Below the pieces are notes generated by a model. It did not search any database, was not told the DNA's origin, and saw nothing but the letters and a program-made list of their open reading frames with translations. Shown piece by piece: positions 2,803-7,984 of a DNA stretch of 57,216 nt (position 1 is its first letter; each line of letters starts with the position of its first letter). The stretch lies in the NCBI GenBank assembly GCA_938049385.1, contig CALIBQ010000056.1, positions 1-57,216 of the forward strand, given 5' to 3'. This DNA comes from an uncultured Anaerolineae bacterium. Its GTDB lineage: Bacteria > Chloroflexota > Anaerolineae > JACIWP01. Position numbers and translations under genes: made by a program.

Positions 2803-2836
2803 ACCCCCATGGGCAAATGTGCCCATGGGGGTTTTT
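2803..2836 (+). terminator. Rho-independent terminator of the fab operon
   Basis: A perfect 13-bp inverted repeat (2803-2815 and 2820-2832, arm ACCCCCATGGGCA) with a 4-base loop is followed by a T run. It lies 24 bases after the redox protein and overlaps the stop codon of the convergent UbiB-family gene. The T tract favours termination of plus-strand transcripts. Confidence 0.93.
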
Positions 2837-4524
2837 CAGCGCCGGCCAGCCCTCCACAAAGACCACAACAGCCACAGGCTAGCCCCCACCGCCAGGGAAA
2901 AGCCCAGCGCGACCATGACCGTGCCCACCCATGCCGGCCAGCGGCTTGCCGCAGTGGGGAAAATCAGCCCAATGCCCACAATGAGGGCAGAGATGATAAG
3001 GGAGATGCTGATGCGGTTGACCATGCGGTCCCAGCGCGCCAGGGCGCGCTCCTGGTCCCGCTGAATATGCGATAGGGTAAATTCCCCCTTCTGCAGTTGG
3101 TCCAGCAGTCGCGGCAGGTACTGCGGAAGCTCCTGCCACAGCTCCTCCCAATCGCGCAGTGTATTCCCCAGCCGGCGCGCCCACGCCGCCGGCGCGCTCA
3201 TCTCCCGCAGGGCTTGCTCCGCGTACGGCCGCGCCAGCGCAAAGATATCCAGCTCGGGGTACAGCACCATCCCGGTGCCTTCCATCATCACCAGGGTCTT
3301 GGCCAACAGCCACAGGTTGGAGGGCAGGCGCAGGCGGTGGCGGAAGGCGACAGGCAGGAAATCCTCGAACAAGTCGCGCAGGCGCAGGTCTTTGAGCGGC
3401 GCGCCCCAATAGCGCTCCAGGAAGCGGCCCAGGTCGCGCCCCAGCCGGCGGTGGTCCACGCTGGCCCCCACCATGTCCATGCGCACCAGCTCGCCGACAA
3501 TCTGGTCCGGATCGCGCGAGATCACTGCCAGAAAAAGCCGCAGGAGCTGTTCCTTCGTGCGCTTGTCGAGATACCCCACCATGCCGAAATCCATCGCTCC
3601 AATGACGTTATCTTCCATAACGAAGAAATTGCCCGGGTGGGGATCGGCATGGAAAAAGCCGTCCACAAAAGTCTCCTGCATGATGAGATCCACGGCATTC
3701 AGGGCGACGGTGCGGGGATCCAGGCCGGCCGCCCGCAGGCCCTCCACATTGTCAATCTTCACCCCGCGGATGCGCTCCAGGGTCAGCACATCGTGGGTGG
3801 TGTACTCCCAGTAGACGCGCGGGATGTAGACCTCCGGCCGGCCGGCGAAATTGCGGCGGAAGCGCTCCGCGTTGCGCGCCTCCCGCACATAGTCCATCTC
3901 AGCCCGCAGGGTAGCGGCAAACTCGTCCGCCAGCTCCGTGAAAGCGTACATCCTGCCGAAGGCCGTGCGTTCCTCCGCCAGCCGCGCCATGTCGTACAGG
4001 ATATCCAGGTCCACTTCCACGATCTGGCGGATGTTGGGGCGCAGTACCTTGACCACCACTTCACTGCCATCCGGCAAGACGGCGCCGTGCACCTGCCCCA
4101 GTGACGCGGCCGCCAGGACATCGTCATCGAAAGAGCGGAACAACTGGCTGATGGACGCGCCCAGCTCCGCCTCCACAATGGCGCGCGCTTGCTCCGAGGG
4201 GAATGGGGGGACTTCATCGCGAAGTTTGGACAATTCGCGCAGGTACGCCGGCGGGAGCAGGTCCGGGCGCGTGGAAAGCACCTGTCCCAGTTTCACGAAG
4301 GTCGGGCCCAGCTCCTCAATGGCCAGGCGAAGGTGCTCCGCCGGCGTCAGCGGCGCGACGGGACGCACCCGCTCCGAAACCCGCCACGGCAGTGCCAGCC
4401 GGGTCAGCAGACCAAGCTGTTCCACCACATTGTCAAAGCCGTGACGGATCAGGACACGCGCGATCTGCTGATAGCGGCGCAGATGCTGGACATGCCGGCC
4501 GAATGGGGGCAGACCAGGAAGCAC
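2836..4524 (-). CDS. ABC1/AarF-UbiB family protein kinase-like protein
   Basis: 562 residues, the usual length. Members are atypical kinases or ATPases that support quinone or lipid metabolism at the membrane. Visible family marks are the KxGQ motif in FVKLGQ followed by STRPDLLP, the Ala-rich nucleotide loop AAASLGQVH, the lysine in VVVKVLRP, the catalytic DPHPGN and the metal-binding MDFGMVG. Two hydrophobic helices at the C-terminus (from about residue 500) anchor it. The start is a GTG, preceded by GAGAGG; no internal ATG fits better. The substrate is not known. It is the last gene of the minus-strand run that starts near 12.5 kb. Confidence 0.93.
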   Translation of the reverse strand: MLPGLPPFGRHVQHLRRYQQIARVLIRHGFDNVVEQLGLLTRLALPWRVSERVRPVAPLTPAEHLRLAIEELGPTFVKLGQVLSTRPDLLPPAYLRELSKLRDEVPPFPSEQARAIVEAELGASISQLFRSFDDDVLAAASLGQVHGAVLPDGSEVVVKVLRPNIRQIVEVDLDILYDMARLAEERTAFGRMYAFTELADEFAATLRAEMDYVREARNAERFRRNFAGRPEVYIPRVYWEYTTHDVLTLERIRGVKIDNVEGLRAAGLDPRTVALNAVDLIMQETFVDGFFHADPHPGNFFVMEDNVIGAMDFGMVGYLDKRTKEQLLRLFLAVISRDPDQIVGELVRMDMVGASVDHRRLGRDLGRFLERYWGAPLKDLRLRDLFEDFLPVAFRHRLRLPSNLWLLAKTLVMMEGTGMVLYPELDIFALARPYAEQALREMSAPAAWARRLGNTLRDWEELWQELPQYLPRLLDQLQKGEFTLSHIQRDQERALARWDRMVNRISISLIISALIVGIGLIFPTAASRWPAWVGTVMVALGFSLAVGASLWLLWSLWRAGRR

Positions 4525-4865: not shown

Positions 4866-4947
4866 GGCGCACACTCCTTCGGCGTGATGATAGTGCCCAA
4901 CTGCCAGGCCCCAGATTGGCTTGATTATAGCACAGGAGAGGATGCCT

Positions 4948-6223
4948 TCACAAAGAGGGAATCTCCCGGGGTGAAGAGGCTCGTTCCCTGCCCACCCCCC
5001 ACGTGGCCAGCAGGGCGAGGCAGTAGAGCGCCAGGCAGAGGACGTACACCCACTTCAGCTCCAGCAGGTATGCCAGGGCATAGGCCAGGAAGGGGCCGGC
5101 CGCGCTGCCGAAATCCCCGCCGGCGGCATACAGCCCCATCAGCAGACCCTGACGTTCGCGGCGCGACAGGTCCCCCGTCTGCGCCATCGTCGTGGGTGTA
5201 AGAATGCCATCGGCGAAGGCCACCACCATCACGCCGGCGGCGATGACCCCCACCGCACCGTCGAGGGAGAGCAGGGCGAAACCCACGATGCCCAGCAGAA
5301 GCCCCCAACGCATGACCCGCCAGCGCCGGCCGTCCCGGTCCGAGAGCCAGCCGGCCAGCGGGCCGGCGATGATGCCCATGATCGGACCGATGCCCAGCAG
5401 AAGGCCGGCCAGCGTCGGGACGCCGACGACCCGCCCCCCCCATTGGGACCGCCTCCCCATAGCGCAGGCGCAGGAGCAGTCCCACGGTTGACATTACCAC
5501 GCCGTTGCCGGCCAGATTGGTCAGCGCATACAGGGCGATGGAAATCAGGATGGGGAACGACAGCTCTCTCCGCAGGCCGTCCCGCAGTCGGCCCCAGCTC
5601 CGCCGTCCCAATATCGTTGGGAGAGCCTGTCGGGGAAGACCTGGCGGCGCGGTCTCCGGCAGGGCAAGGATCGCGAACAGCAGTCCCAGCCCGGTGACGC
5701 CGGCTCCCAGGAACAGCGTTTGCCGGAACCCCAGCGCATCCACCAGCGCGCCGCCGCTGACCGCCATGATGGAGAGGCCCATGAGCACCGAGATTTGATA
5801 CAGGCCGGCAGTGCGGCCGCGGTCCGCCGGCGTGGTCACATCCATCACCATCGTCATGGCGGTCACGTTGATCAGCATCCAGGCAGTACCCCACAAGGCA
5901 CGTGCCAGCAGGAGCGGCCAGAACCCCACCGCCAGGCCGCACAGTGCCGTAGAGAGCGTGCCCAACAACATGCCGGTGATGAACGGGCGCCGCCGGCCGA
6001 AGCGGTCCACCAGCCATCCGCCCAGGGGATTGCCGGGAATGCGTACCAGACGGTTCACGCCCAGCATGACCCCCACTGCCGCCATACTGATGCGCACCAC
6101 GTCGGTCTGTGTGGCCAGGGACGCGTACATCGTCTGGTCCCCGGTCAGTGAAAGGATGACGGCCGCGCCCAGGGGCACCAACAGCCGGGGGATGGGAATA
6201 GAAGAGGCCGGCGCGCTGCTCAT
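4948..6223 (-). pseudogene. MFS transporter, frame broken at a G8 run
   Basis: Two overlapping frames together make a complete 12-helix major facilitator. The first (from 6223) has helices 1-7 and motif A (DRFGRRRPF); after the sequence GEAVPMGG it becomes meaningless. The second frame carries on with GRVVGVPTLAGLLLG, a second motif A (LSDRDGRR) and helices 8-12, ending at 4948. The switch lies in a run of eight G on the minus strand (C run 5434-5441). Seven G would join the frames cleanly. The ATG overlaps the stop of the upstream redox gene (ATGA). Either a homopolymer sequencing error or a recent mutation is likely. The substrate is unknown. Confidence 0.85.
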
Positions 6224-6648
6224 GCGCCCTCCAGCAGGTGCAACAGCATACGCGCAGTTTCCTCCCCTACAAAGGCGCAGGAGCCGGGGCCGCCGGGGGC
6301 GTATATCTGCTCCCGCAGGGGCGCGCAGTCCAGGGTCTTCCAGCGCAGGAGAAAGCGCAGGCGGAAGGCACGTGCACGGGCATAGGCCGGCAGGTCATCC
6401 TCGTCGGGCGAGAGCCGGCCGTAGTGGGCACTGATCAGCATGATGCCGGCGGAAAACGCGCCGCACAATTCCTCTCGCGTGCCGCCGATGCCGCCGCTGA
6501 AGGCGGTCGCCGACCGCAGGAAGCGCTCGTCCAGCTCCCCCCACCAGTGCTCGCCGACGGCGCGCAGGACGGATTCCGTTCAGTGATAGCCCTGCCGCAT
6601 CAGATCGCCGGCGCGCCGTGCAATCTCCTCGCGCTCTCGCTGGTCCAT
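6220..6648 (-). CDS. C_GCAxxG_C_C family redox protein, probable selenoprotein (in-frame TGA at codon 23)
   Basis: From the ATG at 6648 the frame gives 22 residues ending MRQGYH, a TGA (6582-6580), then 119 more residues in the same frame to 6220. The whole reads as one 142-residue member of the putative redox family C_GCAxxG_C_C. The usual first cysteine of the GYNCAESV-like motif is the TGA (GYH-TGA-TESV). The other three positions are intact: LCGAFSAG, LDCAPL and GSCAFV. A hairpin 13 bases after the TGA fits the bacterial SECIS pattern. Without Sec insertion only a 22-residue peptide would be made. It is 13 bases after the C69 peptidase and overlaps the MFS start. A nonsense mutation of a Cys codon is the alternative. 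Confidence 0.8.
6548..6566 (-). promoter_or_regulatory. bSECIS-like hairpin
   Basis: On the minus strand the RNA TGCGCGCC-GTC-GGCGAGCA can fold with three outer pairs, one G-A mismatch and four inner pairs, leaving the loop GUC. The loop begins 21 bases after the TGA, and its first base is G. Known bacterial SECIS elements lie within the coding region with a G in the first two loop positions and a UGA-to-loop distance of about 16-37 bases, so this fits. No SelB-binding data can be inferred. Confidence 0.6.
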
Positions 6649-6661
6649 ATCTCGCGTTTCC

Positions 6662-7984
6662 TCAGGTGAGCGCCGGCATGTTCGCGGCGCGGTTTTGCGC
6701 CTCCCAGTAGCGGCGGTACAGCAGTCCGGGCCGGCGGCGCACTGGGGCCGATTGCACGCGCCGCGTCCATTCCGCCTCGGCGGCATCCGCCCGGGCGAAG
6801 CACTCCTCCATGAACTCCGGGCTGTCCCCGCCGGCGAAAAACTCCGCCTCCAGCGCATCACGTTCGTCGCGATAAAGGCCAATGCGCGTCGGATAATCCA
6901 GCAGTACAGCACGGTGCAGAAGCTCGTGCCGCCACCAGCGCACCCGCTCGTCATATGTCGCGCCCGGTTCCGGGCCGAAGACCACCGGCAGGCGCCCGCC
7001 GGCGGCAAAGCTGACCGGTTTGAAGATGCCGGTGCAGGGCGCCGCTGTACCCGTGAACCAGAAGGCGGCCCCGTCCGGCCGGAGCTGTGCGATCATGGAG
7101 CCGGCGGTCTGGGCGCCGCCCCCGCGAATCGGCCCCCAGGAGGCATGCGCGCAGACCTGCATCAGCAGGCCCTGCTCCGGCCGCCAATCGGGGGACTGGC
7201 CGTGCCGGCCGTGGTCGCGCAGGACGCGCGCCATATCCTGCGGGGTCAGCCGGCCCTTGCGCTCCTGCAGAAAAGTGCTGGTACAGGCATGCCGCTGGAA
7301 GCTGGCGCTGAAATAGGTATATATCGGCTCGCGGTAACAGCGGGCGAAGTGGAACTCGGACTTGGAGCGGCACCATCCCCGCTGGACGGCGTATTCCACC
7401 AGCCCCGGCGAGGCGTCGTCCCATTCGCTCCCGATGGACAGCCCGTTGGAGATGCTCCGCACATCGCGCACCTTTTCCACCACCCAGTGGGGGCCGGCGG
7501 TCTCCAGCACATAGGCCTCTTTGGCATCGGCGATGATGAAGGCGTTATGATACTTGATGGTATGCCGGTAGCCGCCCAGCGCGCACTGGCCGTACCTGCC
7601 CATCAGCTCAATGATCGTGTAGAGCGCCTTATGGGCGGTGTCGGCACGTTCCAGGGCCAGGCGCATGAGGTCCATGCCGGTCAGCCCAGTCGTCTCATAG
7701 GGCAGTTTGGTGAAGACCGCCTCGTTGCCCATGACGACGCCGGCCTCGTTGGCCCCCATCTCGCACCCGAACATCCAGAAGGGTTTGGAAAGGATGACCC
7801 CCAGGGTCTCGCGCGCCTGGGGGATCTCGATAAAGGTGCATTTCACCGTCTCGTCGGAGCGGTGCACGGCAGGCGGGAAGTACACCAGCCCCTGCGCCTC
7901 GTTCGCCTCCCGGTCCGAATTCTTGGCGAACAGCACACTGCCGTCCGCCGTGCTGTTTCCCAGGGCCACCAGTGTGTCGCACAT
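6662..7984 (-). CDS. Secernin-like C69 family peptidase
   Basis: 440 residues. The N-terminus MCDTLVALG followed by LFAKNSDRE and VYFPPAVH is characteristic of secernins and related N-terminal-nucleophile peptidases of family C69. Cys2 would be exposed as the nucleophile once Met1 is removed, and Asn and Asp in KNSDR complete the usual site. No signal peptide, so probably cytoplasmic, acting on small peptides. A strong AGGAGG site precedes the ATG. It starts 30 bases after the glycosidase-like gene and is followed within 13 bases by the probable selenoprotein gene. Physiological substrate unknown. Confidence 0.9.
   Translation of the reverse strand: MCDTLVALGNSTADGSVLFAKNSDREANEAQGLVYFPPAVHRSDETVKCTFIEIPQARETLGVILSKPFWMFGCEMGANEAGVVMGNEAVFTKLPYETTGLTGMDLMRLALERADTAHKALYTIIELMGRYGQCALGGYRHTIKYHNAFIIADAKEAYVLETAGPHWVVEKVRDVRSISNGLSIGSEWDDASPGLVEYAVQRGWCRSKSEFHFARCYREPIYTYFSASFQRHACTSTFLQERKGRLTPQDMARVLRDHGRHGQSPDWRPEQGLLMQVCAHASWGPIRGGGAQTAGSMIAQLRPDGAAFWFTGTAAPCTGIFKPVSFAAGGRLPVVFGPEPGATYDERVRWWRHELLHRAVLLDYPTRIGLYRDERDALEAEFFAGGDSPEFMEECFARADAAEAEWTRRVQSAPVRRRPGLLYRRYWEAQNRAANMPALT

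Follow-up and report, generated by a model that had tools for sequence, protein, structure and literature searches.

The C-GCAxxG-C-C family has been tabulated among predicted selenoproteins (PMC9312934, Table 1), and it is found as two predicted selenoprotein forms, 1 and 2, in PMC13188914. In the main text of the 2008 marine paper, the family is not named. Among profile models, TIGR01909 bears the name C-GCAxxG-C-C family (seleno)protein in NCBIfam, and NF045501 represents the HUGP/GUXX-star fusion selenoprotein. Here we describe a gene with these affinities in the window, that is, the whole stretch of 57,216 nucleotides analyzed from an uncultured Anaerolineae bacterium. The preliminary description of this DNA had announced a probable new selenoprotein. 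The word "new" can stand for the gene and for its Anaerolineae group; it cannot stand for the family, since the family had already been tabulated in both of the above publications and NCBIfam itself calls TIGR01909 a "(seleno)protein".

The candidate selenoprotein gene occupies positions 6220–6648 on the minus strand. Its frame runs from an ATG at 6648 to a terminal TGA at 6222–6220, giving a protein of 142 residues, and the sole internal stop is a TGA at 6582–6580, which corresponds to residue 23 and falls in the first conserved Cys column of PF09719 (C_GCAxxG_C_C). With U read as C, the protein matches this profile at 54.9 bits against a gathering cut-off of 27, residues 21–135 being aligned with profile positions 1–115. 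The four conserved Cys positions of PF09719 are all present, as residues 23 (predicted Sec here), 62 (codon 6463–6465, the Cys of the CGAxxxG motif), 108 (codon 6325–6327) and 124 (codon 6277–6279), and C62, C108 and C124 are invariant in alignments of 36 and 22 relatives. In these respects (one frame broken only by a TGA, a TGA at the first Cys of the family, and three further Cys positions intact) the preliminary description was accurate. The match to TIGR01909 (window residues 21–115 with profile positions 1–94; E 5e-11) reaches 42.8 bits, below the curated cut-off of 47.4. Likeness to NF045501 is restricted to the N-terminal half, covering window residues 8–82 (E 1e-12; 47.7 bits, far under the cut-off of 325), and the C-terminal fused part of that selenoprotein is absent from the window protein. 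Judging from the sequence evidence presented below, we consider it almost certain that this bacterium reads the UGA at 6582–6580 as selenocysteine; the selenocysteine insertion suggested earlier is supported by the conserved TGA, the Sec/Cys column, the hairpin and the sel genes alike.

The spacing to both neighbouring genes is as tight as had been noted. A C69-peptidase-like gene with a secernin-type N-terminus (MCDTLVAL) is located 13 bases upstream (6662–7984, minus strand), and an MFS transporter gene lies downstream (4925–6223, minus strand), its ATG at 6223 overlapping the stop codon of the selenoprotein gene as ATGA. The MFS frame is displaced by one base in a run of G near 5434, which is either an assembly error or a real mutation; in the congener locus L101 the frame is intact and encodes 422 aa. 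Both neighbours recur within the genus and neither is seen in the loci of other relatives, so the operon says little about function.

In both congeners (other genomes of the genus, assembled separately), TGA is present at the same codon, the proteins being 82–83% identical. Across the class, PF09719 matches were obtained in 135 of 396 genomes. When 36 PF09719 loci, window included, were picked mainly for an internal stop or for a match starting just past the first Cys, TGA was found at the first-Cys codon in 35 of them (34 genomes) and TGC in the remaining one. The TGA is more than a chance occurrence: both congeners keep it, and within the class it stands at that exact codon in 35 loci. Among the matches listed in the 396-genome search, each single internal stop is TGA, with the exception of a decayed copy (G099:C18) containing a TAG and a TAA. 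Elsewhere in the class, many members lack an internal stop, and a Cys codon was observed wherever their first Cys was read. A scan of named genomes revealed further Sec loci in Anaerolineae, Ardenticatenia, Caldilineae, Candidatus Zipacnadia and a Clostridiales MAG, as well as Cys at the Sec23 column in Zixiibacteriota, Desulfovibrio and relatives, Oscillibacter and others. The in-frame UGA column pairs with Cys in homologues, as expected of a SECIS-dependent bacterial selenoprotein, and column 23 is a predicted Sec/Cys pair of the classical type. Such pairs had been proposed as a check in the preliminary description, which had also named a plain Cys codon in close relatives as evidence against its reading; what we found was TGA in the congeners and other close relatives, and Cys in relatives from other lineages.

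Several additional family members deserve mention. On another contig, the window's genome encodes a second C_GCAxxG_C_C protein (L093; G000:C1, 15078–15509, minus strand) with Cys at the first position; this protein has an insertion separating its first Cys from its second and is present in both congeners. The loci L042 and L060 (in G040 and G136, respectively) belong to a further subgroup that has TGA in the first Cys position (FAUSQAV/FAUSQSI) and lies beyond the aligned sequences. A more distant Sec subgroup (YNUAESV-like) includes L061–L065 and L086, whose hairpins are different and are spaced from the UGA by roughly the same length.

The selenocysteine machinery of the window's genome comprises selA (E 5e-179), full-length selB (E 2e-111), a tRNA-Sec with anticodon UCA (69.2 bits, Rfam) and selD (E 1e-108; L027:1500-2440, G000:C46). 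The genome search recommended at the outset hence recovered all four components, selB and tRNA-Sec among them, whose absence had been named as fatal to the proposal. The frame of selD is broken only by a TGA located in the active-site motif CAGUAGK, from which SelD itself appears to be a Sec protein of a well-known kind, and selD would be the second selenoprotein gene of this genome. Within the class, selB was detected in 314 of 396 genomes, and full selB in 32 of the 34 genomes from which a Sec gene had been fetched. The other two (G250 and G027) have no full selB match and yet contain tRNA-Sec, so that a gap or break in the assembly is the likely cause.

A bSECIS-like hairpin, UGCGCGCC-GUC-GGCGAGCA, is located at 6548–6566 on the minus strand. 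The stem begins 13 bases beyond the TGA and the loop is GUC (6558–6556, minus strand), both as previously described, and it is composed of a 4-bp upper stem, one G.A mismatch and a 3-bp lower stem. The published limits for bSECIS elements (PMC13188914, Fig. 2) are a loop of 3–9 nt with a G in its first two positions, an upper stem of 4–16 bp, a distance of 16–37 nt from the UGA and an MFE <= -7.5; with its 3-nt GUC loop, 4-bp upper stem, distance of 21 nt and energy of -8.8 kcal/mol, the window hairpin lies within all of them. In 29 subfamily members a helix occupies precisely this position, with a GU[C/G/U] loop 21 nt from the UGA. In these members, 92% of the cells are paired, compared with 29–49% when the helix is slid, and five of the nine helix pairs show changes on both sides, that is, compensatory changes. 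A total of 240 of 261 pairs are formed versus 187.5 ± 5.4 in protein-preserving synonymous codon shuffles (z about 10), in a test that counts related sequences as independent and uses a helix defined on the same sequences. The 18 Cys controls, one of which (L046) is a wrong-strand read, show no such pairing excess (z 1.3), and the window together with its two congeners alone gives a small excess over synonymous shuffles (z 2.1). The G.A mismatch of the window's own hairpin, and an upper stem with no more than 4 continuous bp, likewise count against it. Mean folding energy was not clearly lower in Sec than in Cys members (p 0.19), and the strong test is only the one at the fixed position. For the folding-energy comparison, Sec loci L042 and L060 were excluded, and some controls had been taken from the wrong strand, of which a motif filter removed most, L046 having stayed via a chance motif. 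On comparative grounds, then, the hairpin is conserved beyond coding needs, and the suggested bSECIS check turned out in favour of the candidate, both by the published limits and by covariation across 29 sequences.

Other explanations of the in-frame TGA can be weighed against these data. A sequencing or assembly error at a true Cys codon (TGC or TGT) might be entertained given that the frame shift in the MFS gene points to an assembly that is not error-free; this explanation is nevertheless refuted by independent genomes, as the TGA is present in both separately assembled congeners and in about 40 other loci, and we give it virtually no chance. The TGA could also be a real stop, either in a decayed gene or between two pieces with a restart downstream, and a TTG-started ORF (6468–6220) that would serve the latter case is present. 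However, all relatives keep the downstream part as far as the last Cys, TAA or TAG never takes the place of TGA at this codon, the hairpin past it appears to be conserved beyond coding needs, and the truly decayed copy looks different, with its TAG and TAA; a real stop is thus very improbable. As for a general reassignment of TGA in this genome, for instance to Trp or Gly, nothing speaks for it besides the in-frame TGA. TGA serves as an ordinary stop at the end of the selenoprotein gene itself, of 6662–7984 and of 2836–4524, the internal TGA aligns with Cys in relatives rather than with Trp or Gly, and the genome possesses tRNA-Sec(UCA) along with the full sel set, all of which make reassignment practically out of the question. 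Selenocysteine insertion is the reading that we adopt. As in the pathway established for bacteria, SelB carrying Sec-tRNA-Sec would bind the hairpin, the UGA at 6582–6580 would be read as Sec, and translation would go on to the 142-residue protein.

With regard to function, the AlphaFold2 model of the 142-residue protein is all-helical (pLDDT 96.4). In a second-look structural aligner, the top alignment was with 1h21 (rmsd 2.4 Å over 129 of 142 residues) at a Z of 13.6, although for mostly helical models Z values up to about 13–14 may reflect a common arrangement; the next entry had a Z of 3.0. The match is credited despite this caution because of the large gap to the next row and because weak profile hits to 1h21 (E 0.1–0.3) agree with it. 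The Foldseek list contained no significant match for the model, a single-sequence search of the PDB returned no match, and the NCBIfam split-Soret model matches 2 of 22 relatives. The 1h21 entry is the split-Soret cytochrome c of Desulfovibrio desulfuricans, the subject of a 2003 paper with the words "a novel iron centre" in its title. Likeness to the window protein lies in the fold of its iron-centre domain, in which the Cys of CGAL and the last Cys align with the window protein, and Ala48 is aligned by sequence with Sec23. The cytochrome has heme CXXCH motifs, whereas none occurs in the 142 residues of the window protein; identity of the latter as a split-Soret cytochrome is ruled out by this absence, and only the iron-centre domain fold is common to the two. 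We take the iron centre of 1h21 to be of the [2Fe-2S] type.

Because the fold matches the split-Soret iron-centre domain, an iron- or Fe-S-linked redox role is proposed for the window protein, to which we give about an even chance. In the proposed arrangement, Sec23 would form a redox or metal site with Cys62, Cys108 and Cys124, probably an iron or Fe-S site as judged from the fold. The more specific idea that, in a relative of the split-Soret domain devoid of heme, Sec23 coordinates an iron or Fe-S centre or lies immediately next to it is unlikely, and a role of Sec at the iron site is putative, given that the aligned residue in 1h21 is Ala48; if the idea is true, a protein widespread in Anaerolineae would carry a natural selenolate at an iron centre. 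In several relatives, the neighbouring genes are related to Fe-S clusters, metals or Mo cofactor (NifU_N, FeS_assembly_P, Nitro_FeMo-Co, MobB+FeS, NUBPL/ferredoxin, and DUF364 for heavy-metal chelation), and others are TrmO, metallo-beta-lactamase, prolidase and galactokinase-like genes. The Fe-S and metal genes among them would agree with an iron-linked function, but as they vary from locus to locus they are no more than suggestive. Sec genes adjoining Fe-S assembly, nitrogenase-cofactor-like and Mo-cofactor genes were seen at L117, L123, L108, L112 and L105.

Selenocysteine may also be inserted into a protein of the thiol/selenol redox type, in which Sec is paired with a Cys and neither iron nor Fe-S takes part. 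Most known Sec residues are redox selenols (PMC9312934), and the Ala at the first-Cys position of 1h21 implies that the residue there need not be an iron ligand, but the fold match to the split-Soret iron-centre domain and the Fe-S, metal or Mo-cofactor genes beside the gene in several relatives argue against it. We regard its chance as slightly short of even. For the iron- or Fe-S-linked role, the fold link would offer the family a concrete hypothesis, namely a selenocysteine near an iron centre.

Standard gene calling ends such genes at the UGA. Since calling is cut there and the score is under the NCBI seleno-family cut-off, Anaerolineae genes of this kind may be missed or truncated. At least 35 Sec loci with a covarying hairpin can be used as they stand to test bSECIS prediction. 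Compared with forms 1 and 2 as given in the published tables (PMC9312934 and PMC13188914; published representatives WP_012158890.1 and MGD8741185.1), the window group has PF09719, an in-frame UGA and Cys homologues in common, and like them it is a predicted selenoprotein group. It differs in its distribution, mainly in Anaerolineae and relatives, in having its predicted Sec at the first Cys, and in its strongly conserved hairpin. As far as we have seen, three things are new: how large the Sec group of the Anaerolineae is, the conservation of its hairpin, and the hypothesis that the fold suggests for its site.
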